A DNA stretch of 64,000 nt from Beverwykella pulmonaria (Eukaryota; Ascomycota; Dothideomycetes; Pleosporales; Melanommataceae): contig BCHH01000002.1 in NCBI GenBank assembly GCA_001599595.1, positions 658,390 through 722,389 on the forward strand. The letters are read 5' to 3'. Below the pieces are notes generated by a model, which was not told where the DNA came from, ran no database searches, and saw nothing but the letters and a program-made list of their open reading frames with translations. Of the stretch, positions 8,100-57,620 are shown piece by piece (positions within the stretch are counted from its first letter, which is position 1; the number at the start of each line of letters is the position of its first letter). Made by a program: the position numbers and the translations under genes.

Positions 8100-8514
8100 C
8101 CTGGAGTGATATCTCAGCGCATTTTTTTCTGGTCTCCTAGGGCACCCCCACTTACAATCAATTTGTACAGATAGTCTGAGATCTTGGCAGTTTCTGAGAA
8201 ATCTTACCTTAAATAAATGTCAAGAACACCGCTTCCCATTGCCTGATGAATGGGCTGCTGAGGACATTATACAACCCCTTGGACACGTTCATTGACGTGG
8301 CAGACCGGGCAAGGAGCGAATGAAAGCGCAAAGTGAAAGCTGCATGAAGCCACTGACGTGGTGAGTTGCTATTTTTAATGCTCAATTGAGCATACATCTC
8401 CTGATGCGCACTTTGCTTTTTCGTGCGGGGTCGAAGTTAGCCTTGTCGTAGTACATCTTCTTGATGAGTGTGAGAGCCGAACAGAGTTTGTGACGACCAT
8501 TGTAGTTGCAAAAT
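8100..8514. promoter_or_regulatory. Shared divergent intergenic region
   Basis: 415 bp between the starts of the 299-residue protein (minus) and the TPR-CHAT gene (plus). It must contain both promoters. I see no specific operator. Confidence 0.4.
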
Positions 8515-14282: not shown

Positions 14283-14794
14283 GCCATAAAGTGATCAAGT
14301 TGGGGAAAATATTTTGCGGTATGAATTGAACTCACGAGCTAGCCCTCTGTGGAGTGGCAGCCTGGATAAATGATTGAGCTCCAAGTTTACTTGGTGATGA
14401 GGCTGAAGTCAGGCATGATAGGTCATACTGATATGCATCGAGCGTGCGTGGGGGGATACGAGGTGGCTGGCGGTTATGCCTCGCACTTCCAACCAATACC
14501 ACAACCTCATGGTAGGTTTTCCTTCGCCTTCTCAGGGTTTCACTGGAGGTTATTAATTGCTGATCCCTGCTCGAGTGCTATCGTGTGGGCCGCCTTCAGG
14601 CTCAATTTAGAGGATTACGCCTCTGTGATTCAGGAATGTGCTGCTGCCTTGAGCCTGCTTATCATGCGGCTCCGTGTTCATGGCATTGTCGGAATCGATG
14701 CACTGCTCATATAAACAATTAGGTGGGAAACTCTAGCGTATGTCCAAACCAAGTCCGCCTCGGCTTTCTTGAAGGCTTTCAACATCACTCAGCC
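14283..14794. other. Intergenic
   Basis: Upstream of the permease on one side and of the small gene at 14795 on the other. No recognised feature. Confidence 0.4.
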
Positions 14795-20600: not shown

Positions 20601-20959
20601 TTTCTAGTTCACCAAGGCACACAACACCAATTAAGAAAAAATCCCCTCCACGGGCCCGAGGTGGATCGAGAGGAGAAGGTCCGAAGTGGTGGGGCAATGT
20701 GTCACGGAGCCTCTACGATACCCAGAATAAATCAGCACGTTACTATCCCCCTGTAGCTCTTGACCTGCGAAGTGAGTGCCAACACCAGGCCCCAAACGGT
20801 GGTGAAAAAGCCAAGGTACCAGCTTGGTCTCCCGGCGTAGTTGAGAAGAAGGTTCGAGGGGACCTGGATAAGGATGTAGCTGACGAAGAGAATGGAGACC
20901 GACTTGGAACTGATCGCCGACAAGATGGAGATTTTCAACCAGACCTTGAAGACGAGTAG
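17635..20959 (+). CDS. Serine/threonine protein kinase with long C-terminal extension
   Basis: Two exons. The first runs from ATG 17635 (MASIRVPACQAARNDIFLL) to about 18295. A ~70-nt intron (donor GTAAAT, acceptor GCATGCAG) leads into NIKKFARKTVETTEF, and the second exon runs to 20959. The kinase core shows a glycine-loop-like GANGRVFSFEI, the catalytic loop FHFDLKPANILV (HFD for HRD), DFGQS, the APE-equivalent APPEV and DVWSLGCIALEVTAF. About residues 1-210 form an N-terminal region common to fungal kinases of this class. After the kinase come a compact domain (LWHWNRPSATWQLSSLRVFE) and a disordered proline-rich tail. The last ~85 codons, from about GPKWWGNVSRS, are the complementary strand of a decayed transporter gene. 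They therefore look like a recently acquired tail. Substrate unknown. Confidence 0.85.
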
Positions 20960-24344: not shown

Positions 24345-25255
24345 CTATCGTTGCGTCGGCAAGGGTAATTGCGGCAGCATCTGGACCAACCTATCCACCA
24401 ACTGGGTCGTCAAATGAGAAGGTGGCAGGGAACGTCGCTTCGTGCTCAACGACCAGGCCATGCACACACGGGTTGCAGCCGTCGAGAAATATCTGCCCGT
24501 CTGAATCACCTGCTCACATGGTATCATTTTCTCTTCTAGCTTCTAGTAGAGCAACCCCCACGCACGTCTGTCACGCTTTCTTGTTGACTACATCCCATGC
24601 CAGGCCTGCAACATGGAACGCATACCAACCATGCCACAACCGGTGCGAGAAATGCTCATCGATCGATACTGTCCAAGCCATCTCCAGAGCTTCATCAAAT
24701 TGAACCGCGATGACGAGGACTGCCTCGTCAAGTTGTGTGTTGAAAAGCGACGAAGAGAGCGCGAGTCTAGATTCTAACGATTCACTCTGCGCAACTACTC
24801 TCTGCACATTGATCAAATGGAGGACTTGGAGCTCGATGTCAATGCCCTACGCCAAGATACTCGCCGACACTCTTGCCTACTGCTACTGGCGCGCGCACAT
24901 TGACCTCAATGACGCCGAGTTCGTGCTCGCTCCAGTCAGAGGGTCGCATTCAACACTTCCACACAAATCAGCCTTCCTGGGCGACCACGGAGTCTGCATG
25001 TTCGACTACGACTGCTGTTACGAGATGCCTATGAACGAAGGACGGCGTAACCTAGGTTGTAGCCGCTTTTTGTCGAAGCAATGACGACTATCCTCGGTCA
25101 TGTGACCCTACGGACACCGACTGCCCGTGGTGGATGGTCTCCTGCGACGAATTTCCGCAGACAAGCGGCTATGTTTGGCGTTGCCAGGAAATGTTCAACC
25201 ACTCCATATAGAGCTATAGCAAGCTATCGGAACTATTTATTGAAAATGTCGAGAA
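24345..25255 (+). pseudogene. DUF3669 zinc-finger-type protein, pseudogene
   Basis: Pieces in different frames, in the correct order of a DUF3669 protein. First CVGKGNCGSIWT and FVLNDQAMHTRVAAVEKYL at 24345-24510, then MERIPTMPQPVREMLIDRYC and EDCLVKLCVEKRRRERESRF, then a TAA. Next come RFTLRNYSLHIDQMEDLELD and, after a one-base shift near 24846, YAKILADTLAYCYWRAHIDL with NDAEFVLAPVR. Then CMFDYDCCYEM and, again shifted, VAAFCRSNDDYPRSCDP, ending with a TAG in NHSI*SYSK. The family is expanded in filamentous ascomycetes and of unknown function. At least three stops and two frameshifts make it clearly dead. Confidence 0.75.
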
Positions 25256-38268: not shown

Positions 38269-39625
38269 CTACTCTCCAATCCACTCCGCCACAATGACCC
38301 CCGATGCTGAATTCGCATTGGCCCTCATCGCCTTAAAATTCCTAAAGCTCGTATCAGCCCTTTCAAACAAGCCTTTCCAGTCATCCTCCTCTCGCTCCCG
38401 TGAATTGAACAACGAGAGCATAATCGCATCCATTGATCTACACGAAGCATTAGCACAGCTTTCGTCTTGCTCTTGCGATTTCACGTACCGGATCTGCATC
38501 TCCTGGAGTAGACTCAGCGTCCCCGGTTCCGGCAACAGGTGATCTTGTATCACTACCCTCGCGCCTTTCTTCAATGCCGGGATGAGCTGTTTGAGAGCTT
38601 TGATGCTGTACTTGTCAGACCAGTCGTGGAGCACATAGCGGAAGAGGTAGACTTCTGCATCTTTGACTGGCTGCTCGGTGAACATGTCATGGGCCATGAC
38701 CTTCAACCTGCCCTTCACACTCTCGGGAAACTTCTTATCCGCTCCCTCGATAACTTCAGGCCTATCCTGGACAACGAAGTTCAGATGCGTGAACTGCTCT
38801 GCGAGATGCACCGAAACATGACCCTGCGACCCCCCAATATCCACAACTGTACTCCCCGCCGGAAGAACCCCCCAATCGATGCAATTCGCTAACGCATCCA
38901 AGCTAGCTCTACTCGTAGCACCCATTGCGCCTGCAAACCTCTGCGCACGCTCCGGGTGCTTAGCATGAAACTCAAACATACCCAACTCCGTCCCATTCGC
39001 GATCGAGAACCCGGAGAGACTCGGTTCCTCGCTCTTCTTCGCCATCGCTTCCACGGCCTTTGAATGCGCAGGCCAACATTCTTCGAAGAAAAGCGCCATC
39101 AAGTCGCCTATCTTATCGCTGTCGAGGAGGAGTTTGGAAGCGGCGGTGTGCGCGACAAAGCCTTTGGATGGTTCGCAGAAGACGTGGTGGTGGATTGCGG
39201 CATAGCGAATGACGCGTTTTAGGTCATGCTCGAGGAGTCCACACTTGTCCGCGAGATCGGAGAAGGAAATAGAATCAGCAACAGGGACAAATGAGGCGAT
39301 CTTGAAGCGATATATGGCTGCTAGTGGGGCGAAATTCGACTTCACATGATTAGCTCAAGTCCATTACTCCCTGCTAATTACACGAACTTACCTCGGGTAG
39401 AAGAAGTTTCACAGGTCCTTCCAATAACTGACGTAACTCGATAGTTGCGGCAACGACATCAGTCTGCGCCTTGTCGATCTCAGAGTTGGATTGCTGGATC
39501 GGCTCAATGGGGCTACCAACAGCGAACGAAGGCTGTGAGAGTTTCTTGTCGCGAAGATGCTGGTCGAGGACTGCTGTCTGGGATGCAATTATCTGTGCCA
39601 GCTCTGTAATTCGCGAGTTCGCCAT
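38269..39625 (-). CDS. Fungal O-methyltransferase (COMT-like, family 2)
   Basis: Two exons: MANSRITELAQIIASQTAVL from 39625 to LLLPE near 39393, an intron of about 50 nt (GTAAGT..TGAAG), then SNFAPLAAIYRFKIASFVP to the stop at 38269, giving about 440 residues. An N-terminal dimerisation/winged-helix region (SDLADKCGLLEHDLKRVIRY) precedes AdoMet motif I VVDIGGSQGHVSVHLAEQF. The catalytic-base block is FRYVLHDWSDKYSIKALKQL (His in LHDW), and then ARVVIQDHLLPEPG. This is the plant-COMT-like class used for phenolic or polyketide hydroxyls in fungal secondary metabolism. It borders three UstYa genes and a repeat precursor, so tailoring of a RiPP (for example a tyrosine side chain) is plausible; membership is inferred from proximity. 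Confidence 0.88.
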
Positions 39626-40165
39626 TTTGCAGGAAGAAGGTGGTTTGTTCACTGAGAGCTTCTGACACACGTCGCAACGTGAAGGAGTACCAACGAGGTG
39701 AAATTAGGACTCGCGCTAGAAGAATGTTTCCACCAAGATATGCAATCGTAGAAGTGTGCCCTACTTGTAGAGATTCATGGTGGAGGTGGAGGAAGCGATG
39801 TCCGACGAGAAGGTAAGTCTGGGTCGCACGAAGAGGAATCTGACATACAATCCTTCTACTCCCCGCGCAAGGAAGGTGGGGGTCGTTCTATCACGTGCAG
39901 TTCAAGCAGGGTATGATGCGGCGCACAACGTTTAATGTAACATGTCGGCATGAAAGAGTGATTTTTTGAAGGCTATACACTTGAAATTACTGATCAGAAG
40001 TTCATATATTTGACTGCAAGCTGACCTAGGTAGGCAATTCTAAATCATAGGCATACGGATTTGCGAAGTGCTACTAGATTATCCTGTTATCTTCCAGGAT
40101 ACACTTTCCCCTTCAGCATCCACGGCTCGCCTCAAAACGCGGTACGCAGTACATCACAATGACAA
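39626..40165. other. Intergenic
   Basis: Promoter side of the O-methyltransferase and 3' side of the first UstYa gene. No gene seen. Confidence 0.4.
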
Positions 40166-41127
40166 TCACCGACCCGGTGCAACCTCAAAGTCCTCCTTCC
40201 CTGCAAATCCATACTGTGAGTTCGGCCCATACCTCCTCTCAAGTTCATACAGCGGCTTCGTATCTCTACAGTACCTCACCTCTGACCCACCATCAATTAC
40301 CTTGACGAATTTCCCATTGTCAAGCGGTCCGGGTTGAAGAGAGACGCTCTCCAGCGTCGGGTCCGCATAGCACATGATCGACTAAAGACGAATTAGTGCC
40401 GCAAACCAATACGGGGGGGACCAAAAAATAAGTATCTACCTCTCGGAGATAGTCAAAGCAGTGCGGCCAATGTGCATCGTCGCTCCAGTCTGTGCCGATG
40501 TCGACGCCTTCTTTGGACAGTTGGAGAACCATTCGCATTTTGGCGAGGCAATGCATTTGATGAAACCTGCATCGCGCCGCTCGTCAATATCCTATCCTTA
40601 AGTAGGATGAGAATGGGCTAGATTTACATCGCAATGCCCTTCAAGCTCGCATTCCCCTTCCCGTCTGGAGGTGGCAACCTGATATTCCCCGTCGCCATGA
40701 GCAAGTGCTCTTGCCACAAATAATCGCTCTCGTGATCTAGCGTCATATATCGGAGGTCTCTGTAGAATCTCGTCTCCACTAGATTGTCCTTCTTCCACGT
40801 ATCTACTGGATGTGGGTAGCCCTCGAGAGGGTCATTGTGAGAGTCATGTTGGGACTGTGGAGGAGAGGGTCTCGAAAAAGATGTGGGAATCATTGTGCTA
40901 CTATGTATGAGAGCGATAAGCAGAATAAGGGAAAAGGCTGTGGTAAAAAGAGAGTAGTATTTCCAGAATGGGCTGTCGTTGGCCGGCCATCGGAGAAGTT
41001 TTCGACGTCTCTTTAAAGGAAATCGTGTCTCTTCGTTGGAGGTTAGAGGAAAGTCCTCAAGATCTTCAGATAATGAGGAGCGGTGGTTGATATCGGCTGT
41101 AGTTTCTTTCACCTCGTTATATGGCAT
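40166..41127 (-). CDS. UstYa-like (DUF3328) RiPP oxidase A
   Basis: Three exons in phase: 41127-40628, 40566-40440 and 40382-40166, giving about 280 residues. A cytosolic N-terminus is followed by one TM (YYSLFTTAFSLILLIALIHS at about residues 57-76) and a lumenal domain. The first joined exon end gives FHQMHCLAKM and the second HCFDYLRE-SIMCYADPTLE. Together these are the paired HxxHC motifs and the [IL]MC-x-[AG]D-x-T block that define UstYa/DUF3328. UstYa proteins catalyse oxidative cyclisation of ustiloxin-, phomopsin- and asperipin-type peptides in the secretory pathway. All motif residues are present, so it should be active. It is one of three family members within 7 kb. Confidence 0.9.
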
Positions 41128-42880
41128 CTTGGAATTGTGAGGTACGGGAATTCAAATCAGGGTAGGTGTGAAAAGCGGCTGCGAGGTGAGCGAAGTATTC
41201 CAGAGAAAGTGGGCGTTGAGTTACCCTCGAACGCTCGGTGGTACTGCTCCGTTATTCCGCAACCCCACCTCTTCATTATGCCATCCTTAGTCGATAAGCC
41301 TTTATTCCAACCGCGACGGCATTTCCCGCCTTCGTGCACTTATCTTAGACAGGTTAATGCCTATCGATCTTTCTAACTGGATAACTTCCATGCCTAGTGG
41401 CAGAGAGCATGCGATGTAACGTACGCTAAGGTGCTCGAGGAGGGATACCATTCCTTCTTAATGTCGCAACCTGGAATAGAATTCACATTCCTGATCCTCA
41501 ACGATCGGCCCAATCAACTTTTCTATAGACTTTCTTTAGAGCTTGCGTGAACGTAGGCTATGCGTACGAAATAGATTACCTGCCAGTTACGAACAATGCA
41601 TTATCTGACGTTGTGGCTGAAGGATTGATCTTCGAAACTAGCCAATGCAGAGCCTACCCAGGGCCGGTGAGGAACAACCCCGCAACTCCAGGGAACCATG
41701 AGGCCGTCATTCAATTGGGCCGTAAGAATCCTTTTAGTGAAGCTAAGACATTTGTTTATGTTGATGCGGGACGTTGGAGGCGTGCATGTACATGCCGGTG
41801 AAAGAAGGAGCTGGAAATATACTTAGGTAAGCACTTCGATCGCATAATAAGCTCTCGTATCGGGGTAGTTGCTTACTGGTAAAGCCAAGTGGTGATCCCT
41901 GCTTCTTCTGGTCCCGGTAGAAGAACCTTAAAACAACATCAACGGCATCTTTTGTGATATTACGCACCTGCAGTGCATGTGATATAGCGACAACCGCGGC
42001 TTGATGCTATACTGCCAATGGAAGAAACACCGCGTTGTTCCGATATTTTACATTGATACTAAAGTGTAGCCTTGTATACTAACAACGCACGTGCACCATA
42101 CAGATCGCATGAACCCACCCAATCACTGATGGCGTTGGGATGCTGAAGTCCGGGACGGGAGGGAAGATGCGCATGCAGGACGTCTCAAACGTCCAACTAG
42201 CGTGGAATTATCCAGTCTTCAGCGCAGTGTTAGGAAACGTAATAGGTTGGTCAGATGCAGTACCATGCTGGTTCTCGACAGCCCTGTAAGCCGCCTCAAA
42301 GATCCTGTAAGAACAGGCAGTAATCGCGCTCTTGTTACTGGCCATCGTTGGAACTTGGTGCGGGGTTGTTTATGCATATTGCGACTCCCTGTTAGGCGCT
42401 CCAGATTGGAAAACGGCATCGGTTGAGGATGCATGCATGTTGAGATCTGACCATTACCTTCAATTTATGTGATAGCGAGTTACCGTCAGGCGTTTCTATC
42501 AAAGAAAAATAGCTCATTGGCAACCATTCCATGAGGCGGCTCGGCGGCATCTCGCAGGTGAAATTGAAGCGTCAAAGGATGCATATCCTTATCGTCAAAA
42601 CATGGCGTGCGCGGAGTAACGTTGGGGGCCAAATTTGCGGGGCTGTGATTGAATGAACACCAGGTTTCCATGTGCAGAATGGTCACCTCAGAACTTGGTT
42701 CGAAGAGGAAGTAAATGAATATAGATTGCTTTGACGCATTGAACCCATTTGAAAGCAACTAAACCCGGGTAACCGGATGTGATTGTAGTCCATACTTTGG
42801 GCCGCAACCTCTTATACGCCCAAGAGTACGATCCCCAGTGCTAGAAACGCTTCTGGACAACAGTCGGAATGCTGTCGTGG
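41128..42880. other. Intergenic within RiPP locus, two unexplained open frames
   Basis: 1.75 kb between two UstYa genes. Minus-strand frames at 42486-42758 (includes HMETWCSFNHSPANLAPNV and HGMVANELFFFDRNA) and about 41880-41967 (RNITKDAVDVVLRFFYRDQ) look protein-like but I cannot join or identify them. They may be remnants of a lost cluster gene. Confidence 0.3.
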
Positions 42881-43925
42881 CTAGTCGGTTCCATCAAAAA
42901 CAACACCGTGCTTCCACGGGCCGCGTCTCTCACCCTCTTTCATTCCATCATAACCCCCATCGCAGAAACCGAAATGAGCGCCAAGCGGGAACGTGGCTTG
43001 GTCTGCATCTGGAGGCGTGTCGCGGTAGCATGCCGTATTGTCGGTAGCGAAATCCCGCAACGTATTCCAGTCGTTGCACTTGCGGTACTGTTCGTCTCCA
43101 GCCGTATCGTCGCCAAAAAGATAAAGAGGAGTATTATCTGCTTTGCACATGACGTATTGCCGCATCATGTCAATGCAATGCCCCGCGTGAGGGGGGTTGA
43201 AGGTATATTTGTCTGCTCGATGGATGGCTTCCCAGAAGGTTTTCCTAATGATTGTCTAGCGAGACAAGAGTCAACATGTGGTTTTCCTCACAGGACCTTA
43301 ATATTACAAGTAGAGATTATTGGAAACGGGAAACTTGCCACGCAGTGAATAAGATGGTAAGCTTCGAGCAGATACACGTTCTTGCTATCATCGCTTGGAA
43401 GATGCATGCTATCTGGCCAATGTTGACTCTTGGCCCATTGGCGATCCATGGCTATGAAGCCATGCGCGGGATTGATGTCATCCCAGAGAGGGTCAGTTTC
43501 CGTGAAGTTCTTGTCTGAGTATTCAGTCCACCAGTTGAGACGTTTCCATTGGGTCGGTATGGTCTGTGTGCGAGCTAAGAATCATCAGAATTGAATCAAG
43601 AGAGTGACAGAGAGATGGACAAGATACCGGCAGACTTGGGGATATACTCTTCAATTTCGGCGGCACCCAGCTGACCAGATAGATGTTTTGTGGCCAAGAA
43701 AACCGCAAGAGTGCAGGCATTGGTTATGAGGAGGAGAACAATGACTGTAAAACTAAAACATTTGCTTGATCGTTTAGGTTCATGGAGAGCAAAGACAGGT
43801 TCGTCGTAGTCCTTCTCGGTGGGGGATGTAGAACCATCGGTAGAGCCGCCACGAAGCGCAGCGTAGACGGATCGATCTCGCTCCATGTAGGGAAACTTGC
43901 TTTTGCTAAATTTGATACCGAACAT
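42881..43925 (-). CDS. UstYa-like (DUF3328) RiPP oxidase B
   Basis: Three exons. The first runs from MFGIKFSKSKFPYMERDRSV (43925; 43958 and 43886 are other Met choices) with one TM (CFSFTVIVLLLITNACTLAV) to YIPKSA. An intron GTATCT..TTCTTAG leads to QTIPTQWKRLNWWTEYSDKN..LLEAYHLIHCV. An intron GTGGCA or close by..CTCGCTAG leads to TIIRKTFWEAIHRADKYTF, then GHCIDMMRQYVMCKADNTPL to 42881. The HLIHC and HCIDMMRQ motifs and the MCKADNTPLYLFGDDTAGD block place it in the long-form UstYa group. It is divergent in sequence from copies A and C, so the three probably do different steps. It is transcribed away from the precursor gene, with which it shares a ~0.9-kb upstream region. Confidence 0.85.
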
Positions 43926-44854
43926 TGCGAGACAGGGTGAAGTAATTGATGATAGCAAATGGTAAGTTCGGAAAGTTGTCTTTTGGATGAAAAGTAGCTG
44001 GATGATAGAAGCTTCAGCAAGACAGAGAACGAGCAGGAAAGAGCCTTTCCACGAGGTATAGTGGTATCGGGTTGTCGTTTGGCCGATGACCGAGTAGGAT
44101 TTCCAACAGCGGGGTAGATAGGCGACATATATTAGCTTTTCGTTCCATTGGGACCGGGTTCAGGATATAGCCAAGTGAATATCAGACCGAAAGCTACGTC
44201 TAAGACAAGGAGGTGGTGGGTCGCGGCAGGAAGCAATAAGTCAGATAACAAAGTAACAAGGGTCCAAAATCTGGCATGTACCGCATGTTAGCACCTTGAA
44301 ACGGGGCAACAAGGTGCTCCCAAGTAGGAATCCTTCAAGGTGTAGAGGCCCTGTTCGTAGATATAATGGGTCTTAGTAGGATGCAGCTAATCCGTTTGGC
44401 CGACCTCTAGGTCCGCCTACAATCCCATGGCTGTTGCTGCAGATGATGGGATGTGAAGAAACATAACTAGACCACGATTGAAATGCGGAAAAATCCTTCC
44501 GCGCTGTGATAGGAAACGTAGTGGCTTTCCCAAGCGGAGAAGATAGTATACCATTGCTTCAAGCCTTGATTGATCCCGGTAGCAAGAGAGACAACAACAC
44601 ACCGCCAGTTATATCGACCAATATAGGCATTGGGGAAGATGACGAGCTTATGCGGCCGATGAGCGTGACTATTGATCCGGAAGAGGGACCCGGGGATCGC
44701 TATGGAAGGCAGTGCTGAGAGATATACAGGTCTCGCAATACCTCTTCTTTCCCATAAACAGCACTGGTAACGTAGTTTGCTGTCTTCCTATCCTGACTTT
44801 TCGCCCTTCCTCGTTCAATACCATTGCCTCACAGCAACAATTATCTTCGTCAAT
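43926..44854. promoter_or_regulatory. Divergent promoter region, UstYa B / RiPP precursor
   Basis: About 930 bp between two divergent cluster genes. A bidirectional promoter is expected. I see no palindromic site I would name. An open frame at 44506-44718 + has no recognisable features. Confidence 0.4.
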
Positions 44855-45517
44855 ATGAAGTTCACCACAGCCTTGATCGTTGCCATCGCTGGCTTTGCGA
44901 TTGCGGTTCCGCTCCCTGGTAAGTTCAAGTATCTTTGTTTACACCTAGCGAAGCTGATAAGAGTGAAGACAAGGAGGCATACAATGCCCTTGGAGAGAAC
45001 CCTACGCAGGTTGAGTCGAACGAGGGGGTAAACCTCCTTGCTCCTCGCATCGGATATAAGAGGAATGCAGATAAGGAGGCCTATAATGCCCTCGGGGAGA
45101 ACCCAACGCAAGTAGAGTCTAACGAGGGGGTGAATCTACTTGCTCCTAGAATTGGGTACAAGAGGAACGCCGATAAGGAGGCCTACAATGCTCTCGGCGA
45201 GAACCCGACGCAGGTGGAGTCGAACGAAGGCGTCAATCTTCTTGCTCCTCGTATTGGTTACAAGAGAAACGCCGACAAGGAAGCGTACAATGCGTTGGGA
45301 GAGAATCCTACCCAGGTGGAGTCGAACGAGGGTGTGAATCTCCTTGCCCCACGTATTGGGTACAAGAGAAACGCCGACAAGGAGGCTTACAATGCTCTCG
45401 GCGAGAACCCAACTCAGGTTGAGTCGAACGACGGTGTCAACCTCCTAGCTCCCCGCATCGGTGAGTGGAATATTGCACTGGATCTATGCATGTTACTGAC
45501 ATCCAACAGGCTACTAA
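44855..45517 (+). CDS. Dikaritin-type RiPP precursor with five KR-separated repeats
   Basis: Exon 1, 44855-44918, encodes a signal peptide (MKFTTALIVAIAGFAIAVPLP). An intron ends at 44953 (35 nt) or 44968 (50 nt), both in phase. Exon 2 runs to 45460, then a GTGAGT..CCAACAG intron, and exon 3 (45510-45517) adds the final GY and stop. Exon 2 holds five 34-residue repeats starting at 44968, 45070, 45172, 45274 and 45376. Each contains DKEAYNALGENPTQVES and NEGVNLLAPRIGY, and the first four end in KR and are followed by NA. KR is a Kex2 site, so cleavage would release peptides ending in the candidate core NLLAPRIGY. The last copy ends exactly at Y. This layout (signal peptide, acidic spacer, repeated core, Kex2 sites) is that of UstA, PhomA and GigA precursors. 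An alpha-factor-like pheromone is the main alternative, made unlikely by three adjacent UstYa genes. Confidence 0.9.
44968..45460 (+). repeat. Five tandem 102-bp coding repeats
   Basis: Unit length is exactly 102 bp. Between units nearly all differences are at synonymous third positions (for example Arg as CGC, AGA, CGT; Leu as CTC, CTA, CTT). The only clear amino-acid change is E to D in the fifth unit, plus the partial first unit start. The protein sequence has therefore been held by selection while DNA diverged, or diverging copies were each constrained. Confidence 0.9.
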
Positions 45518-46024
45518 AGCAAAAAGACAGCTTGCTGCCCACTGTGGTTCGGCATTGCTGTTGCCGCCTGTGGCTGTTTGGCGCATATACATGTGCTTGC
45601 GCGTTTGAGGTATTGAAACTTGTCCTGGAGGTTTGGAAGCTTGGATTTTCATGGAATTCTGATTTGTTTGTTGTGGCTGCTGTGTCCTTCTTTTGTAGTC
45701 CGGCAGAAGACAATTTAGTGCAGTTCCAAGCTGAAAGATGAATCTGTGATGCGTTGCGAGCTGAATAATGAAACTGTGGAATCCAGGGAACATGCCTATT
45801 ACTTCGACATCTACAATAATGTGGCGATTTGAAATGATCCTGGCAAGATTCATACCGCGAAGATAGCGTCTAAAGGAGGGATAGAACTGACGGATGCTGG
45901 CCGTGGCACGTGCGCTGGCTCACCGTACATATGTAGCGGTGTTGCCCCGCTTCGTAAGATCCTCGTTTCCAGGAACGCCGTACTTCTTATTTTGCACCAC
46001 TTATTTTACGTTGCTTATCACCTC
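45518..46024. other. Intergenic within RiPP locus
   Basis: 3' region of the precursor and promoter of UstYa C. No gene recognised. Confidence 0.4.
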
Positions 46025-46863
46025 ATGTCTCCAAAGCCAGCATATCAGGAGCTACCCTTACAGGACGACGACCGTTCTTCCACCGATGTTGAGGAAGCAT
46101 GTAGTGGAGATGATCACGACTGGAAAACTACACGATCGCAAAACCGAGGCCAGTGGAGGTGGATTGTTGATGTCTTTCTTCTGCTCATAATAGCTGGCCT
46201 TTTCGTCGACAAACAATTGGCCAGTCCACGTGGCCATTTCGAAATCACAGGCGACGTGACGGGCTTCGCTCCGCAATTTTCGGAAAAGATCGTGTCTTTC
46301 AAGCCGGACCTAGGGTTCGTACCCGAGAATACGTCTGCATTCTGGGACAGCGAAGTGCGGGACAAGTGGCTCAGTATCGTCCCCAGAGGCCTGGGCTACG
46401 TCCGCGTCGATGAGCCCGATGAATACGAAGACCTCCCCACGCCGATTCATGATTATTCAAACATGACTGTCTTTACAACATCGATGCCGCATCAACTACA
46501 TTGTCTCGTAAGCATGGTGTTATTGATAGCTTTGCTCTTTCGTTTATGGTTAGGCTGACGTGTCGCCACAAGTACAATATTCTCGAAGTGTACTCCGCCA
46601 TTACATCCGAGAATCCACACAACGTGTTGACGGAAATGACATTCCATCTTCAACACTGCTTCGAGTATCTTCGATTGAGTATCATGTGCTGTGGTGATAT
46701 TGCGCTGGAAGGCGCGCAAACATCGTTTCCGGAGGGCTTCCCGGGGAGCGACGGCTGGGACGCGAAGCATGTCTGCAGAGATTATGGAGAAGTGTATAAT
46801 TATCTCGACGAGCGGAGAGCGACGGATCGCGTGTGGATTGGGGGGTCAGACGACATCCATTGA
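46025..46863 (+). CDS. UstYa-like (DUF3328) RiPP oxidase C
   Basis: Two exons join in phase across a GTAAGC..CCACAAG intron (about 46510-46574), giving about 258 residues from Met 46025 (MSPKPAYQELPLQ). One TM (WIVDVFLLLIIAGLFV) near residues 45-60 is followed by the lumenal domain: PHQLHCL at the exon end, then YNILEVYSAITSENPHN, HLQHCFEYLRLSIMCCGDIA, LEGAQTSFPEGFPGSDGWDA and KHVCRDYGEVYNYLDERRA. This is the canonical UstYa C-terminal arrangement (HQLHC, HCFEYLR, MC-x-x-D, and the W-D-x-x-H-x-C-[RK]-[DN]-Y end). It is co-oriented with the precursor, about 0.5 kb downstream. It is the closest to textbook UstYa of the three. Confidence 0.92.
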
Positions 46864-49519: not shown

Positions 49520-50443
49520 CTAGTGCAGAGGTTTAATCGCCCCTTCTGCCAAAACCTTGTCCTTATTCTTCTCGAGAAACATCTTAAAGGTCGTAAGCGA
49601 AATCCCGTACTTCTTGACCTCCTCGGGATTCCAAAGTTTCGCCATTCCAATCGACAACATCTGTCCAGCAATCACCGGATTAGTAGCCACCTCCTTTGCC
49701 GTCTCTTCCTCGGTGCGATACACGACTTTTACATCACGCCCTGCGGCCCTCGAGAGTTCCTTTGTGATATCTGGAACTGCGAGGTTCTCACTAGCAAGGC
49801 TGAGAATTTTTCCTTCAAATCGCTTGGGGTCCTCAAACACGACTGCTGCCAAGGCACCGATGTCGTTGGGATCGATGAGTGGGAGGGGGTGGTCGGGACT
49901 ATAGCTGTTCAAGAACGTGCCGGATGCTAGCTCAGGGAAAGCGTAGCTTGCGAAAGGTGCTATGAGATTCGTCATGAAATAGCCAGGTCTGATGATGGCG
50001 AATGGGATTCCAGAGGCTTTGACTAATTTTTCGACTTCACCCTTTCCGGCTATGGCAGGAGCCACAATGCTGTTCCCCAGCTTCTCTTTGATATTCGGAT
50101 CATTGAGTGGCAGACTCGTAGAGTGCACAATGAAATTTACCCCAAATTTCTTTGCAGCGTCCAGGGTAGCCGCTGCCTCCCGGGTCTCAGCATCGTCTGT
50201 GAAGGACGGCATCTGGTTCAGGAAGACGGCGGAACAACCCGCAATAGCAGCTTCCACGGACGAGATATCACTGAGCTCTCCTTTGTAGAGCTCGGCTCCG
50301 ATGTTCTTCAGTTCCAGCGCGCGAGCGTCTTCGGGGTCGCGGACAAGTGCATGAATGACCCATCCCGCTTTGAGGAGATGTTGCGCGACGGCTTTTCCTT
50401 GAGAGCCGGTTGCTCGGATCACGAGAGCAGCTTTCGATACCAT
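49520..50443 (-). CDS. NmrA-like NAD(P)-binding protein (atypical SDR)
   Basis: Intact single exon of 307 codons starting MVSKAALVIRATGSQGKAVA. The dinucleotide-binding loop reads RATGSQG, with Arg in place of the usual first Gly of GATGxxG. Further SDR/NmrA landmarks are LVRDPEDARALELKNIGAEL, FLNQMPSF, NFIVHSTSLPLND, IIRPGYFMTNL, LPLIDPNDIGALAAVVFEDP and a C-terminal helical cap. NmrA-like proteins act as redox-sensing regulators or as NAD(P)H-dependent reductases of quinones and isoflavone-like compounds. It is divergent from a Zn2Cys6 regulator 523 bp away. That pairing recalls the NmrA/GATA-factor and cluster-regulator pairs of fungi, but direct interaction is only a guess. Confidence 0.85.
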   Translation of the reverse strand: MVSKAALVIRATGSQGKAVAQHLLKAGWVIHALVRDPEDARALELKNIGAELYKGELSDISSVEAAIAGCSAVFLNQMPSFTDDAETREAAATLDAAKKFGVNFIVHSTSLPLNDPNIKEKLGNSIVAPAIAGKGEVEKLVKASGIPFAIIRPGYFMTNLIAPFASYAFPELASGTFLNSYSPDHPLPLIDPNDIGALAAVVFEDPKRFEGKILSLASENLAVPDITKELSRAAGRDVKVVYRTEEETAKEVATNPVIAGQMLSIGMAKLWNPEEVKKYGISLTTFKMFLEKNKDKVLAEGAIKPLH

Positions 50444-50965
50444 TCTGGGCGTTATTTGATGGGAGATAGAAAGCTCAGATGTGGGGCGAAGAGCTTAGCG
50501 TATTGAGTGGTTGAGAAGGCTTTGGATGAAATGGAAAGAGAGTGCAAATGGGAAAGGGAATGCTTAAGTATTCGGACCAACAAACTGCCACTCATGTCTT
50601 GCCATGATCCAAGTTTCCTAATATGCCTCAACACTCTTGGATCTTGATACGATACAGCGCCTTTGGATGTTCCCGATGGAAGTCCGCACTCCTCCTAGCG
50701 CCACAGCGGGAGTCCGCACTCGTATGTTCGGCCTGCCGCGGGGACGAACACTATGATACGCGATATAGAGGATTCAATCCTTCGAGATGGACAAAGATGA
50801 TTCCGATGTCCCATGCACTGATCGTCCGTGGTGGTGCAGTTGGGATGCTGGGAGAGGCTGACGCAACAAGAGACATGGTCGATGCTGACGTAATCATGCA
50901 CTGACGTAATCAATCTCCAGCCTTACGCTTCACGCGTCTCACGCTCTACGGTTCAACACCACACA
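50444..50965. promoter_or_regulatory. Divergent promoter, NmrA-like / Zn2Cys6 regulator
   Basis: 522 bp shared upstream region. It contains a direct repeat of GTCCGCACTC (about 50682 and 50713, 31 bp apart) and a repeated GCTGACGTAATC/ACTGACGTAATC pair near 50885-50910, the second resembling a CRE/bZIP-like TGACGTAA site. Function not shown. Confidence 0.5.
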
Positions 50966-52186
50966 ATGCCCCCCGAACGATACCGGACGAATAACCCCCA
51001 GGGTCGACAGAAGTCATGCTCTGAGTGCGCGAAATCGAAGCGTCGCTGCGATCTCCGCCAGCCAAGCTGTCTACGGTGTACCCGACAGGACTTGACATGT
51101 CTCTATCCACCTCCTCCCGTTGCTTCTGAGACGCCCCGCTCTCGGAGTGCATCCATATCTCTAGAGGCCGTCGTGGACGATCAATTTGCGTTTCCGTTTG
51201 ACATTCCGACGTTTTCGAATGGACAGGACCTCGAGATTTTGGATTTGGACTTTACCACTGGGCTTGGGTCCCTTCCAGCCTCTTTTGACGATCAATTACA
51301 TGGTGAGCTTGACGATGCTCTCCCTCTCACGCGGCATAACTACCTTCCTGGGAAACTCTTCTCGGCCTCTCATATATCCTCTTATGCCCAATCACGCGTC
51401 GAGTTCTCTATTGAGCAGCTCAAAGCAGCCCCGGCCATGATGGTTCAGGAGAACCAAACTCCCTGGTGTCATCCACGCTTGTATGAAGACTACATGCCTC
51501 GGTCTCTCCAAGATGCATACGCCGCCTGTGCTTTGTACTCTTCTAGGAATGATGTGAACGCAACATTTGTCGCGAGGCATATCACTGATCACGTGAAGGA
51601 ATTGTTAGACACACCAGTGCCATCCAACTCTACCGAGCTCCTCGCTCGAGCCCAAGCGCTAGTTCTATATCAGACTATGCTAGTCTTCAGCGGAGATATC
51701 CGCTACTACAGTCAAGTCAACGGGCTATTACACCATATGGAAGACGTTGGGAACTCCCTCAAGACCCTTGTTGATCAAGAGAGTGATCCATCTGGTTCTC
51801 TTACATTGTACCCCAGCATGTCCGCTCGAGCGGCTTGGAAATCTTACATCTTCCGCGAGGCTGCGAGACGCAGTCTTCTTATTCTTTTTCACTTTGTCGC
51901 CATGTGCAACCTTCTCCGAGGACATTTGAATTCATGCGCTCATCATCGCTCTGCGGGGAACCGGGTAACACTGTCGGCGCATTTGTGGAACGCCACCTCT
52001 GTTTTCGATTTTGCCATGGCCTGGAATGAGAGGAAACATCACCTTGTAAAGGATCTCGACTTCACGGAAGTGCTACAGACAGCCCGCGCAGACGATATTG
52101 ACGCCTTTGGAAGGATGATTATGACCGGTGTTTTGGGGCTCGACGACATGAGAGGGTGGTTTCATACAAGAGGTGGAACGTTCTGA
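50966..52186 (+). CDS. Zn(2)-Cys(6) transcription factor
   Basis: Intact single-exon frame of 406 codons. The binuclear cluster is Cys18, 21, 28, 35, 38 and 45 (CSECAKSKRRC then DLRQPSCLRCTRQDLTCLYP), spacing C-x2-C-x6-C-x6-C-x2-C-x6-C, directly after a basic N-terminus. No long coiled coil follows. Residues about 75-110 are acidic/hydrophobic (FPFDIPTFSNGQDLEILDLD), a possible activation segment. The C-terminal two thirds resemble the abbreviated regulatory domain of fungal Zn-cluster proteins (QDAYAACALYSSRNDVNATF and LDDMRGWFHTRGGTF at the end). It is a nuclear DNA-binding regulator. It is divergent from the NmrA-like gene and about 4 kb from the last UstYa gene, so it could be the RiPP cluster regulator, but no binding-site evidence supports that. 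Confidence 0.9.
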   Translation: MPPERYRTNNPQGRQKSCSECAKSKRRCDLRQPSCLRCTRQDLTCLYPPPPVASETPRSRSASISLEAVVDDQFAFPFDIPTFSNGQDLEILDLDFTTGLGSLPASFDDQLHGELDDALPLTRHNYLPGKLFSASHISSYAQSRVEFSIEQLKAAPAMMVQENQTPWCHPRLYEDYMPRSLQDAYAACALYSSRNDVNATFVARHITDHVKELLDTPVPSNSTELLARAQALVLYQTMLVFSGDIRYYSQVNGLLHHMEDVGNSLKTLVDQESDPSGSLTLYPSMSARAAWKSYIFREAARRSLLILFHFVAMCNLLRGHLNSCAHHRSAGNRVTLSAHLWNATSVFDFAMAWNERKHHLVKDLDFTEVLQTARADDIDAFGRMIMTGVLGLDDMRGWFHTRGGTF

Positions 52187-52535
52187 AAACTCAGCTGACA
52201 AACAGCGAATGTGTCAGAGGAATTCGTGTGGACTAGCTGAGTCCTGTTAGACTTAGTGCAATCGTCTGAACAACTTCGGACAAGCCGGTATACCGGATGG
52301 CGGCGCACCTGTTCACATAGAGAGAAAACGTCAGGTAAAGGCAAGATTGATCAGTTAGAAGACAAAAGCCTCCGTCTAAACCCGCTTGCAGCTTTTGCCT
52401 CTGCCTAAATGACTTGTCCTATGAGCCTCTGGAGTGGCTTTTCTAATTTTCTTGGAGACATAGCGAGCTATTAATCGCCGTCATGTCACCCGAGAGATCG
52501 AAGTTTGCGGATTGCTCCTACCCTGCTTACCCTGC
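52187..52535. other. Intergenic
   Basis: Nothing recognised between the regulator and the coiled-coil frame. Confidence 0.4.
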
Positions 52536-53060
52536 CTACCGACGCCGGCCACCAAATCCAAATCCCAGGTTATCACCTAAGAACTTGCGCTCCTTTGGTC
52601 GGTTCGTCAGATCCATGGAACGTAACCTCGCCGCTTCTGCTGTAGTCAGCTCTGCTTCTAGCTTGGCATTGCTCTCGCGGAGCTCTTGCTCCTCCTTCTG
52701 GCACCTGTGATATGATGCCGGGCGAGAGTCGCGCTCTTGACGATAGCGCTCACTCTCCTTCACGCCACATTGGCTGGAAGATCGAGATGGAGATCGGAGG
52801 CGTTGAGGAAGAGCATACTCTCGGTGATTAGACCAGTGATGATGGTACAGTCGACTCTCGTTAGCGCGATACAATTTTTGTATCGCAGCATCGCAGCATC
52901 GAGGCACTAGGCTTGGTTTAGAAGGTATTAGGCTTGATACAGACGCTACTAGGCTTAATATAGAAGCTATTAGGCCTAATTCTACTGCTAGCGCAATATC
53001 ATCAAGATCGCACTAACGAGAGTCGACTGTAGTCGTCCTGCTACTCCTCGCCGCGCCGGT
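52536..53060 (-). pseudogene. Coiled-coil open frame split by a MITE
   Basis: On the minus strand a protein-like tail runs HHHWSNHREYALPQRLRSPS, SQCGVKESERYRQERDSRP, CQKEEQELRESNAKLEAELT, ending GDNLGFGFGGRRR at 52536. The middle is a plausible coiled coil. The frame's upstream continuation is interrupted at 52846 by the MITE at 52848-53029. Just beyond the element, sequence GTAGCAGGACGAC could be an intron acceptor plus the first codons. I cannot find the rest of the gene and do not recognise the family. A fortuitous frame is possible. Confidence 0.35.
52848..53029. mobile_element. pogo/Tigger-type MITE with ~25-bp TIRs and TA target duplication
   Basis: 182-bp element. The left end CAGTCGACTCTCGTTAGCGC is mirrored by the inverted right end (GCACTAACGAGAGTCGACTG, ending at 53029), and the element is flanked by TA on both sides (52846-47 and 53030-31). 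Ends beginning CAGT with a TA duplication are typical of pogo/Fot1-like Tc1-mariner elements. There is no transposase. The interior has direct repeats of the form CTAGGCTT..TAGAAG. It is a non-autonomous miniature element. Confidence 0.85.
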
Positions 53061-54337
53061 TCTTTTGTAGAGCCAACCCTTATCGCTCACGGTCGGCTTC
53101 CTTTCCTTTATCAATTGTTTATCGACGTTTCGCTCCCCCTCACCCGTCTCCTCAGGGCCACAGTTTGATCTCACAGCAGACCAAAACGGCACTCCATCTC
53201 CTGCCACTTCTACCATATGGTTTCTCGGCAACGGCGCCTATGGCTGCGCCCACAAAACTCTCTCACTTCCACAGTTTACCGATCCCGAACTTCTCCGCGG
53301 CAGTCAGCGGATGATGACGCCGCGGACACTTGAGTCCATTCTCGCAAATGTATCTAGTCATAAAAGTGGTATAGCAGAAACCGAGATTGTATTCAAGCGT
53401 GCTCCCGCACTACGAGGGGTTCACGCGAACATCTCCATTCTTGAACTTGGTCATCAGCTTCTCTAGGATCTAGATTTCCAAGTGTTCGTAGTAGGAGCGG
53501 ATGTTAAAAGCCGTGGGCGAGATGCAGTTGTTTTTATCAGCTCTGTGCGCTGCATGTTTGAGGTATTCGATGCGCAAGTACAGTTGCCGGGGCCAAAATA
53601 CGTTCACGTATACACTGGAATATACTGCGACCGTTATATGAACACAGGCGCCATTTTCAGTCGCGAGCTCGCTCTCGCGCTCCTTCGCAGATGCATTTTC
53701 GACCCCGCGCAAGGGAAGGGCAGTAGTGTCGTCCAGCAAGCTCTCTATTATTATGTTCTCTTGTTCTTTCTTGTTGGACAGCCGCTGTATGGAATACGGA
53801 GGAAGAATTGGCGGCAGTGTCATAGGCGTATGAGGCTTGAGGTTGACACAAGAGAGGCGGCGGGGGAGGCGGACTGCGAGGTTCGGGTGGCCCGCCAAAG
53901 TGTCCTGGCTGTCCTAATTGTCTATCTGCCATTACAGGTGCAAGTTGCGAAGCTAGTGGAAGGTATGTGTGGTGGATGTGGGAGCACCGTGTCAAGTCGA
54001 CATAGTAGGTTGTCTTCTAAAGATTATCTGATGGCTTTTTTCACCGCTGGAGTGCCTGCACGTGCAAGCAGTGAGACGAAAGTGTCAAAGATTAAGTGCT
54101 TCATTTCAGTAAGAAGCCAGAAAGATGGGCAGAGCTCCACACTGCACTGTCGTAGCTATGTACTTCGGAGTGTACGGCACCGGAGCTAACATGTAGGGAT
54201 ATCTCCAATTATATGTAAGTTCCTGAACACTGACAACTCTTTGCGAGGGTGAGATGTCACATGTTGCGACTGTGCGATTTTTTTTCTCGGAATAAAAAGT
54301 TTATTGTACGACAAGTATCGATGTCGAATCCAAGTCT
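53061..54337. other. Region with competing open frames, no gene assigned
   Basis: A plus-strand frame from about 53159 to 53467 reads STIWFLGNGAYGCAHKTLSL, RMMTPRTLESILANVSSHKS and VHANISILELGHQLL before a stop; it looks like an exon and has no start of its own. A minus frame at about 53932-53660 starts MADRQLGQPGHFGGPPEPRS and is proline-rich. A 235-codon plus frame (53482-54189) overlaps both. I cannot decide between them or name a family. Confidence 0.3.
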
Positions 54338-56121
54338 CTAAACAAAAAGAATCTTGGTCTTCTGGCTCTTCTCTGACTGCCTCTTCTCCTTGAAGTTAAA
54401 ATCTGTCGGCAGCTCCTGAAGACTCCCTTTGTAATTGTTATCTGGCAACTGATACACCAGTCCACTCGCACTCAACTCTGCTCTTGGCGCGCCATCGATC
54501 TCACGCTCCGGCTCGTGCATCTCGTACACTCTCTTGAACTCTTCGAATGATTCCACGGTCTTCTGACTCGCTTGTTCTCGCACTGCTTGGGCCTCAATCT
54601 CTCGTTCTCGGCGAGCTTTTCGTCGATGGCAGAAATATATCAGGACCATGAAAAGTAATAGTAGTGCGAAGGCAATGCAGCCAATGGATATTCCTGCAAT
54701 AGCGCGTTGGCTGAGCCGGCGGGGATGGTTGTGGTGATCCGCTGACGGAGATGATGACGCGTTTTCGGGGACAGACACATCGGTGCTCAAAATCGGGGTG
54801 ATTTGTTGTTTTACAGTCGTTGGGGGAAATAGCGCCTGGTGTACGGAGAAATTTCCTCGCTCATAGTCTACCACTACGTACGCCTCCTGGAGAAATGTGC
54901 GCCCGAGCGTATACTGCGATTCGTTATGCGTACGCCGTATTGGAAAATACCTCGTTGAAGTGTTGTAAATAGGATATGATGCTTCCAAGTCAAACGCACT
55001 ATACGGCAAAACTACATTTACCCGCTCCGTCGGGTTATACGAGTTTCCCAATCCTATCGTCACCGATGGATTCTGCTGTACGAGTTGGTTATGAATCGTG
55101 TCATTCACAAGATACAGATTCGTTCTGTTATCGTACGTAAGTCCAAACGCGGAGGCGAATCGATCGCAGGTCGAATTCGGGAGCCACAACTGCGGGACGG
55201 TGAAGTCGATCTGGACGTAGACCGGAGCGTTTAAGAAGCTTTGCACACCATCTAGTGTATCTTTGCCGACAATGCTTTGTATGTTGAGACTGAGGGGACG
55301 GTCGTCGTTGGAGTCAAAGGGGAACGTCATATTGTTTGGTGTGAGGCGTGATGCATCGTAACCGCCCAGCGTCAGGCTTCCAAGAACCTGTGGGGTTTCT
55401 ATCAAACAGTTAGTCCAAAATCCTCCACTAACCTTCATAGACTTTCTCAAAACTCACTATAGGAAGCTCCCGCCGTATAACCATACGACAAACTTGGGAT
55501 CTTCTTCTCATTCCTTAGCTCCTCAATGTAACTCGCCTGCGGATTCCCAAAATCCGAGAAATTTGACGGCTTATTAAGCAATCCAAACAAACCCATGAAG
55601 ATTGTCTTTGTCTTCACGCCCGCCACAACCCTCTTTTCCAGCGTTGGTCCCCCCGAATTCTGAACCATCAGTCCCACAGTCTCAAGCCCGTACAAACCGT
55701 TTCCTGTGAAATTTATATCGGTGCGCAAGTCCATAGCGTATATCCCGAGCTGGCTCCAGGTCGACGACGCGTTAACTTCCAGGCCAGTGGAAGCTTTATC
55801 AAGGAAGGAGTACACACCCCGCCTAGCACCGCAATCAGAGGGATCCTTGGAGGAGCAACCTTCAGCGATGGGGACGATGGTTTCGCCTGTTGAGGATGCG
55901 GGGAGGACGCGAAAGTTCTGGGGTGGTGTGCCGATGCGCAGGATGAAGGTGGACCATTGCCCATCGTTTCCATCCCATTCTTGGGAGGGGGAGAAGGATA
56001 TTGGCGCCGGAGGAGTGTTATTGGAGGGAGTGCATAAGGTGAGGTGGGTGAGGAGGAAGAGCGTAAGTATTTGGAGGGTAGGTGCAAGGCGAAACCATGT
56101 TGATGTACTGAAAGCTCCCAT
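54338..56121 (-). CDS. Pepsin-like (A1) membrane protein lacking catalytic aspartates
   Basis: Two exons: 56121 (MGAFSTSTWFRLAPTLQILT, signal peptide) to about 55458, an intron of about 60 nt (GTGAGT..TTGATAG), then KTPQVLGSLTLGGYDASRLT to the stop at 54338, giving about 570 residues. The fold landmarks of peptidase family A1 are present: WSTFILRIGTPPQNFRVLP, GLFGLLNKPSNFSDF, SLSYGYTAGASY, SLTLGGYDASR and YTLGRTFLQEAYVVVDYERG. The first DTGS position, however, reads PASSTGETIV, and the second D[TS]G site reads QIDFTVPQLWLP. Both catalytic aspartates appear replaced. A TM (IAGISIGCIAFALLLLFMVL) and a cytosolic tail of about 90 residues follow. This looks like a cell-surface pseudoprotease of a known fungal group, possibly a binding or sensing protein. 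Confidence 0.82.
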
Positions 56122-57620
56122 TGCGCTATGTGGCTAGAGAACTGTGAAGTTTTGATTTCTGACTACTCTCCCATTGTCTCCGTAACGAGAGTAAGAAGGA
56201 TGGTATCCAGGAGAAAACGAGACAGTCTCGATAAGAGATGGGGAAGACGCTCGAGTCGTTGTGGTTGTGAACTCCTCCCCCGCCCGCGCATCGGACGCGA
56301 TACTCAAATTCCGTACCATCTTCAGACCGACCCAATGCTAGGGTTCGGCGGGCGCTCGTTGATGCCCGTTGCGTCCCGTACCTGCAGTAGGGCCACGGGG
56401 GATTTTTATTGTCTTGCAGGGGTCAGTATTACCTGCATCGAGGCGAAAATGTTATATTTTGATTGGACCTCACAACCTCGTCAGACAGCGCAGCTCCCAC
56501 CACATAAGCAAATATCTTCGAAATATTACTACATTTCCCACGCCATTGTCAATTCTTATGTATCCGGTTGAGTACAGTAATGTTGTTTTTGATCACACTC
56601 ATTGTTGTTGAAGTGAAGAAACACAGTCTTCGGTCTCGTGGGGTCCACTACCTCAACTCGTATTCTGGTAAGCATGTAAGCCGGAGTATGAAAGAATATT
56701 AAAGGGTAATACCGGACAATTCTATAATTTTGTTTTATGTTCGAGTTTCAAATGCATTGTTTATCTCGCTCGAGGATTCATGCGAAGCCCTTCAATTAAA
56801 GAATAGCTATCTATCTTCACCAGTCCAGGGAATAAGTCTCACGCCATGCCTAACACACTTTGGCCCCTTTCAAGTGAGGAATTCAGTTTTTTTGTGCAGC
56901 GCATTTTACTTGCACATAACATTGGTATTCAGTGGAAGTCTTATAAAAACAATCAAGAATTTATGAATCTTTAACTGTTCGAATTCAACGCCTTTGAATG
57001 AATAAGAATGGTCCAGCCGTAGTGAATGTTCCACATCCGACGAGGATAACAGGAGTGCGTCGAGAAGGATCTTTCGAGGCCCTGAAAGATCTGTTGGCAG
57101 ATACAGTTATTTTAAGTAGACGAATTAGGAGTTTGGACAAGGCCTGCGGTGGATTCAATAAGATTTTGTGGAGTAAACTAAATCCTTTGGCCCTTTGTCT
57201 AAATTTGCATAGCAGCTAGTTATTCTCTTAGAGGTAGGAACATGCAGTTCACATTTTCTACTTGTGTTCTCTTCCGTAAACACCTTTTTCTATTTTTGTC
57301 ACATGTGACGCGTTGACCGTGTGAGATCTAATTACTACGGCCAATCTTACTCGTGAATTCCACCCCTGTAACACTCTAGTCCGTGGCCGCTTAAATGCGA
57401 TATTTGTACCAGGGATCGTCGCAATTTTAGTCGCAATGTTGGCTTTAGGTCTGAAACAGTTGCTGCATTTCTTCATCTTCACTCTTTCCCTAGGGCAGGC
57501 GATTGTTGACGACCCCAAATACGCCTTGCGACTATCAGCCCCATGGTTGGACATTAAAGCTTCCCTTGTCTGCACTCTGCAGATCGTTAAGGCTATCTCA
57601 CCTTCCCATATCATATTACC
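56122..57620. other. Intergenic, 1.5 kb
   Basis: Several short ORFs (for example 56998-57219 + and 57258-57614 -) with no recognisable features. A partial copy of the GCATGTAAGC repeat (GTAAGCCGGAGTATGAAAG) is at about 56675. No gene supported. Confidence 0.4.

Follow-up and report, generated by a model that had tools for sequence, protein, structure and literature searches.

Does a compact group of genes in the fungus Beverwykella pulmonaria encode a crosslinked ribosomal peptide, and has its precursor been described before? The stretch of DNA analysed (the window) spans 64,000 nt of assembly GCA_001599595.1 (contig BCHH01000002.1, 658,390-722,389, forward strand). A preliminary description had placed five genes in it; all five are found at those coordinates after splicing, with splice models chosen manually from GT/GC-AG sites and reading frame. 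The precursor gene lies head to head with one UstYa-family gene (U2) and is directly followed by another (U3). The dikaritin architecture proposed at the outset is borne out by this adjacency of a Kex2-repeat precursor and UstYa-family genes, and the locus is a genuine cluster of dikaritin type, pairing a Kex2-repeat precursor with UstYa.

In Kex2-processed repeat proteins (KEPs), a signal peptide precedes a tandem array of repeats with Kex2 (KR) sites between them. The precursor (44855-45517, plus strand; exons 44855-44918, 44969-45460 and 45510-45517; 187 aa) is organised in this way, as first noted: it has an N-terminus that is signal-like by hydropathy only, five repeats of 34 aa, four KR sites and a C-terminus ending in LAPRIGY. 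In the gene, the tandem array has a period of 102 bp, 4.8 copies and a score of 597. Between the ten pairs of repeats, silent differences occur at 12-18 of 30 codons and amino-acid differences at 0-1; because of this pattern, the array is beyond chance and is not a fresh duplication. It is under purifying selection. The precursor has 11 Pfam matches, every one below cut-off. A candidate second precursor elsewhere in the genome (C15:899056, 28% identity) was rejected; its frame is made up of repeated TPLHLAA-type stretches and looks ankyrin-like by eye.

U1 (41127..40166, minus strand; three exons, 280 aa), U2 (43925..42881, minus strand; three exons, the second intron GC-AG, 302 aa) and U3 (46025..46863, plus strand; two exons, 257 aa) had been assigned to the UstYa/DUF3328 family by their motifs. 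HMMER, named at the outset as a check that could refute the proposal, agrees: against Pfam PF11807 (cut-off 25 bits) they score 66.4, 82.7 and 61.0 bits respectively, the U3 match covering only model positions 104-219, the C-terminal half. Each protein contains two HxxHC motifs (HQMHC/HWPHC, HLIHC/HAGHC and HQLHC/HLQHC); two such motifs are a proposed feature of RiPP-linked, class-defining DUF3328/UstYa enzymes, and UstYa proteins are known from non-peptide pathways too (PMC12048977). The three share only about 22% mutual identity. Elsewhere in the genome, U3 has paralogues at 50 and 56%. No relative of U2 is found in the PDB at E<=1. The predicted structure of the U2 family has a mean pLDDT of 48 and is confident only in a helix around residues 51-80.

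The fifth gene, MT (39625..38269, minus strand; two exons, 434 aa), had been described as an O-methyltransferase; it matches PF00891 at 80.5 bits (cut-off 22.3), while its two NCBIfam matches are both far below cut-offs. Its membership of the cluster, previously assumed, gains independent support from two sources. Four of 19 MT paralogues in the genome lie within 10 kb of UstYa genes, and the three closest paralogues are 4.7, 3.5 and 5.0 kb from them. In addition, the 8-mer ATAGGCAT has one copy in each of the four intergenic regions of the cluster: at 40047..40054 (plus strand, 422 bp before MT), 41357..41364 (minus strand, 230 bp before U1), 44623..44630 (plus strand, 225 bp before the precursor and 698 bp before U2) and 45792..45799 (minus strand, 226 bp before U3). 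A position 225-230 bp ahead of three start codons (U1, precursor and U3) was obtained in 0 of 1000 shuffles. MT is likely to be a tailoring enzyme of the cluster.

Ding et al., as told in PMC12048977, list a methyltransferase, tyrosinase, transporter or S41 peptidase for dikaritin clusters. From this list, the window contains a methyltransferase, of O- and not N-type. The preliminary description had named tyrosinase, S41 peptidase and P450 as absent. For the first two this stands: none of the 38 genome-wide tyrosinase (PF00264) matches and none of the eight S41 matches falls in the window. For P450 it holds among the 100 matches listed, from 92 of 342 candidates scored; the motif FxxGxRxCxG is also absent from window ORFs of at least 70 aa. 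Among 30 ORFs outside the cluster, Pfam identified no transporter except an amino-acid permease at 13146-14294. Asperipin-2a is an accepted dikaritin which likewise has no tyrosinase.

Relatives in other fungi were sought for the precursor and U2. The precursor profile search (7991 candidates scored) gave six relatives, and a fused gene model from Cercospora was found in addition; the relatives come from Trichophyton, Arthroderma, Cercospora and three further records. Common to the family is a Tyr-to-Tyr module of 26 residues and fixed length, from Tyr1 to Tyr26, in eight sources. In 23 of 25 units, and in 8/8 sources, Tyr1 precedes position 26 by exactly 25 residues; the linkers between units vary. 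A stricter unit pattern (22/22 units) was dropped since conserved residues had been built into it. The nine-residue NLLAPRIGY had been proposed as the core; this is not borne out and is only one option, because the relatives share the longer module. In 19 of the 25 units, D stands in place of its initial N. The Cercospora relative has TKPLQ or SKPLQ in place of LAPRI, and unit ends include LLAPRIGY, LVAPRIGY, LLAARIGY and LTKPLQGY. Such natural variants reveal which residues are variable and which are possibly recognised.

U2 has 27 relatives at E<=1e-10 and is conserved across Dothideomycetes, Onygenales and Leotiomycetes. A precursor was seen beside two of these 27, the two whose neighbours were covered. 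In T. benhamiae, the U2-type A8136_0923 and the precursor A8136_0924 are probably neighbours, as judged from consecutive locus tags and the same longest contig (560,921) rather than from DNA, matching the arrangement in the window; in C. kikuchii, a single gene model contains both. A tree of 20 U2-type proteins has four of 17 inner branches starred and is too weak to argue for or against horizontal transfer. Like the window precursor, the dermatophyte relatives (A8136_0923/0924, T. tonsurans TESG_08313 and Arthroderma sp. PD_2 FQN49_003320) have the 26-residue unit, and the Arthroderma model also has a C-terminus ending in APRIGY. In contrast to the window, these models have two to three repeats, K-x-KR rather than KR after the unit, and LVAPRIGY rather than LLAPRIGY. 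They carry only hypothetical or uncharacterised annotation. A T. benhamiae expression paper reports a DUF3328 gene, ARB_07951 (PMC12584700); its tags could not be matched to A8136_0923/0924, and the gene carries no weight here.

Each known system resembles the cluster in part. The asperipin-2a cluster (aprA, aprY, aprT and aprR; PMC6514808) is similarly described with a Kex2-repeat precursor and a UstYa-family oxidase and with tyrosinase missing, and its core, FYYTGY, has the same Gly-Tyr end as the window unit. It differs in having one UstYa gene rather than three, a reductase and transporter rather than an O-methyltransferase, and a repeat of 8 aa rather than 34 (PMC7329392). Ustiloxin and phomopsin clusters share a signal-like start, KR-separated repeats, at least two UstYa genes and a methyltransferase (PMC6514808, PMC7329392). 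However, they need a tyrosinase, none being found in the window, and their methyltransferase (PhomM) targets the N-terminal amino group, whereas MT is of O-type. Their core is YxIx, absent from the window unit, which offers no more than YNAL and a GY at its end; relative P0006 carries YNIL. In Clan R1 of lichen fungi, too, an O-methyltransferase lies next to UstYa genes; PMC12048977 describes it as previously unreported in dikaritin clusters. As described there, Clan R1 has a tyrosinase and an FGE-sulfatase, and a repeat precursor was not found; in the window the precursor is plain.

The five genes probably produce an oxidatively crosslinked (dikaritin-type), presumably cyclic ribosomal peptide, by the following proposed steps. 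One point in favour is that 65.6% of KEP repeats with a DUF3328 neighbour include a tyrosine, compared with 38.2% of repeats lacking one (PMC7329392). The hydrophobic N-terminus would take the precursor into the secretory pathway. Cleavage by Kex2 behind each KR, followed by trimming of the basic residues, would give 32-residue units ending in LAPRIGY. The UstYa proteins, with U2 as the family-specific member alongside U1 and U3, would then act on the unit as oxidases and install a crosslink on a tyrosine. The likeliest site is Tyr26, within VxLxxPxxGY; the choice of Tyr26 over Tyr1 is a guess from conservation. The conserved YxxLxxNPxQV half of the unit may serve as a recognition sequence. 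Finally, MT would methylate the product. We infer product, crosslink and function of the cluster as likely.

An unlikely alternative is that the product is the whole unit of 26-32 residues, linear or linked from Tyr1 to Tyr26, so that the first half lies inside the mature peptide instead of acting in recognition. The constant spacing of the two positions between variable linkers favours this, as does the finding that codon changes in the first half are as silent-only as in the second. However, reported cores are short (PMC7329392 gives repeats of 13 aa for ustiloxin, 14 aa for phomopsin and 8 aa for asperipin), and L021, another UstYa-linked precursor in the genome, has a VDxLxxRIxYK tail without the first half. 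It is equally doubtful that the working cluster consists only of the precursor, U2 and U3, with U1 and MT as neighbours with separate tasks. The start of U1 is 1.75 kb past U2 and MT is further out still, the search for outside relatives covered only the precursor and U2, and a single UstYa protein is enough for asperipin-2a (PMC6514808); against this stand the copies of ATAGGCAT before U1 and MT, and the nearest MT paralogues adjoining UstYa genes.

An unmodified secreted signal peptide, in the style of pheromone-type KEPs and with the UstYa genes acting elsewhere, is highly improbable. Among 7878 surveyed KEPs, 22% have DUF3328 (1758 genes with such a neighbour), 78% do not, and the known KEP products include linear peptides; but pheromone-type KEPs nearly all lack DUF3328 neighbours, with three exceptions (PMC7329392). 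Here the precursor has a UstYa gene on either side, and in two other fungi it is again found with the U2 type. Pfam pheromone models are all below cut-off on the precursor, with no passing stretch (best M-factor, 22.6 bits against 25).

Compared with these alternatives, the crosslinked peptide made by five genes is the preferred reading. The cluster had been called undescribed; this stands in part, since the architecture itself is common. The cluster is of a known kind, with a precursor family for which no description was found in the open-access texts searched; the supplementary type table of PMC7329392, a possible listing, was outside the search. Longer unit strings and the relatives' locus tags had no match in open-access texts. 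The string APRIGY also occurs inside words; such matches, among those listed, were mostly brain and behaviour studies by title or abstract. By 2022, reports of dikaritins numbered just five (PMC10512285), set against the 1758 KEP genes that have a DUF3328 neighbour. A family recognisable in several fungal classes from its precursor as well as its partner enzyme offers a good starting point for tying sequence to product, and leads to a concrete prediction that can be tested in dermatophytes.

A broader proposal, itself distinctly unlikely, is that the 26-residue Tyr-to-Tyr module and its own U2-type oxidase form an unrecognised, long-conserved family in Dothideomycetes and human skin fungi (U2 also in Leotiomycetes). 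Its product would be long, crosslinked and O-methylated rather than a core of 4-9 residues, and its conserved role would be in signalling or development, not that of a species-specific toxin.

The window (C2:658390-722389) belongs to a 45.6 Mb assembly comprising 31 contigs; introns and relatives of its genes identify the source as a filamentous ascomycete. The cluster's five genes, once spliced, occupy the coordinates assigned in the preliminary description. Three of them, U1 (40166-41127, minus strand), U2 (42881-43925, minus strand) and U3 (46025-46863, plus strand), had been called UstYa/DUF3328 genes; PF11807 scores of 66.4, 82.7 and 61.0 bits respectively (cut-off 25) confirm this, and each protein carries two HxxHC motifs. 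The call of O-methyltransferase for MT (38269-39625, minus strand) is likewise upheld by PF00891 (80.5 bits).

The precursor (44855-45517, plus strand, 187 aa) has a hydrophobic N-terminus followed by five 34-residue repeats, with four KR sites. The last of its three exons adds just the remainder of the last Gly codon, a Tyr and the stop; thus the fifth unit ends as Kex2 would leave the other four. The ten repeat pairs differ silently in 12-18 of 30 codons and by 0-1 amino acids. Since nearly all codon differences are silent, the array is judged from its sequence to be old and under strong selection at the protein level, across the entire unit and not just at its C-terminal end.

A single-sequence search with the precursor found two relatives (7992 candidates scored) and a profile search six (7991 scored): Trichophyton benhamiae A8136_0924, T. 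tonsurans TESG_08313, Arthroderma sp. PD_2 FQN49_003320 and three further records (sources ena, jgi and lgn). A seventh, C. kikuchii CKM354_000612800 (P0031), came from the U2 search; this one gene model combines a U2-type UstYa protein with repeats that have ...GY ends. It appears to fuse a UstYa gene with the adjoining repeat precursor, which is likely an annotation error.

Units were defined as 26 residues counted back from the residue following each (RI|LQ)G, which fixes positions 23-25. This gave 26 units in eight sources, 25 of them usable (the first unit of source P0001 is incomplete). V17 is present in all 25 and P8 in 24; Y1, Q10, V11 and L19 are each found in 23, P22 in 22 and Y26 in 21. 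In two of the 25, the first units of P0002 and P0031, the upstream part passes into other sequence. The four units lacking Y26 are all final units, and their models continue past RIG, the site of the second intron in the B. pulmonaria precursor; the Arthroderma model ends in RIGY, as does that of B. pulmonaria. The pattern at position 26 fits an intron common to these genes.

U2 has 27 relatives at E<=1e-10 (345 candidates). Identity is 66-78% in Polyplosphaeria, Zopfia, Clohesyomyces, Mytilinidion, Onygenales sp. PD_40, Lophium and Mollisia, 54-62% in three Trichophyton and lower in the remaining named relatives; the nearest named are Dothideomycetes. The five lineages checked for class fall into Dothideomycetes (Polyplosphaeria, Zopfia, Cercospora), Leotiomycetes (Mollisia) and Eurotiomycetes/Onygenales (Trichophyton). 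In T. benhamiae the U2 relative A8136_0923 has a locus tag consecutive with precursor A8136_0924, and both records give a longest contig of 560,921. Judging by the TPA_exp label and strain CBS 112371, both tags seem to stem from an RNA-seq reannotation (PMC5069957); A8136 does not occur in that paper's main text, so this origin is inferred. The first HxxHC motif is missing from the A8136_0923 model but present in the relative from T. verrucosum. Close paralogues of U2 are absent from the B. pulmonaria genome, where the next match has 46% identity over 57 residues; U3 has two paralogues (50 and 56%). Separately, ARB_07951 (DUF3328) and next-tag gene ARB_07952 of the T. benhamiae complex show strongly different expression between taxa (PMC12584700, table 2).

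Pairing of Kex2-processed repeat proteins (KEPs) with UstYa is a large known kind, to which this cluster adds: such pairs are numerous (1758 of 7878, PMC7329392; nine clusters in Venturia inaequalis, PMC9632046), and neither the unit's sequence nor the relatives' locus tags were found in open-access texts, supplements excluded. No dermatophyte peptide of this kind was among the literature matches listed from open-access titles and abstracts.

In two papers, the precursors have a signal and KR sites; the ustiloxin ring is formed by UstQ with UstYa/UstYb; asperipin-2a requires AprY and comes from a four-gene cluster without tyrosinase; and in phomopsin UstYa proteins also carry out residue desaturation (PMC6514808, PMC10512285). 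On these precedents, Kex2 would cleave the precursor into 32-residue units, U2 together with U1 and U3 would oxidise the unit, and O-methylation would be the closing step. Oxidation would most likely occur at Tyr26, because its neighbours vary (LAPRI to TKPLQ) while Tyr26 remains, and because L021, a UstYa-linked repeat ORF elsewhere in the genome, has a VDxLxxRIxYK tail without the unit's first half. That half would be the recognition sequence for oxidation; it is rather unlikely that the entire Tyr1-Tyr26 module is the product.

Of the 30 other UstYa places in the genome 24 were examined. A script flagged KR-bearing repeat ORFs in five of 25 regions; it is blind to single-repeat and intron-split precursors, so this count is a lower bound. 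Four are plausible candidate precursors: L021:7327-7527 (C2:3685326-3685526; repeat DNDVDALETRIYYK..EKR), beside UstYa genes, and, near such genes, L020:4915-5526 (repeat about 41 aa), L025:6417-6791 (about 23 aa) and L032:1980-2241 (about 20 aa, array readable in two frames). The L021 tail resembles the end of the unit and may reflect distant kinship or convergence. The fifth, L031, was judged spurious.

MT (METHYLTRANSFERASE) has 30 other matches in the genome, which represent 19 places after exons were merged by hand. The three paralogues closest to MT (40-43%) have other UstYa genes at distances of 4.7, 3.5 and 5.0 kb. Four of the 19 places are within 10 kb of a UstYa gene, versus 1.45% of the genome (binomial P 1.4e-4), and one of these paralogues, on contig C17, begins some 1.2 kb away from an ORF with KR repeats (C17:317916-318290). 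Methyltransferase-type and UstYa genes both tend to group in biosynthetic clusters generally; this proximity is therefore support, not proof, for membership of MT in the cluster. A further MT paralogue, at C3:4546179-4551225, lies within 5 kb together with two UstYa matches and one tyrosinase match; no repeat precursor was found there.

The cluster's intergenic regions have an 8-mer in common, ATAGGCAT. It occurs five times in the window (shuffle mean 1.86; five copies attained in 1 of 100 shuffles), once in each of the four regions and once at 25025. Its distance to the start codon is 230 bp for U1, 225 for the precursor, 226 for U3, 422 for MT and 698 for U2. Any 8-mer common to all four regions arose in 10 of 1000 shuffled sets, one equidistant (within 6 bp) before U1, the precursor and U3 in none of 1000, and 2 of 400 quadruples drawn at random elsewhere in the window had a common 8-mer. 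The 25 regions examined around other UstYa genes contain two copies of ATAGGCAT. As ATAGGCAT was chosen from a prior list of shared k-mers (k = 7-10, three gene sets), these tests are exploratory.

Cluster membership is not claimed for the NmrA, Zn2Cys6 and aspartyl-protease genes at 49520-56133, near which the window has no copy of the 8-mer. The Zn2Cys6 gene (28.1 bits, cut-off 21) could be a cluster regulator; it forms a divergent pair with the NmrA-like gene (142 bits) at 49520-52186, 2.7 kb past U3. A protein of 957 aa encoded at 8506-11379 has a TPR-like region as well as a CHAT domain (37.3 bits, cut-off 24); a kinase gene lies beyond it at 18359-20959.
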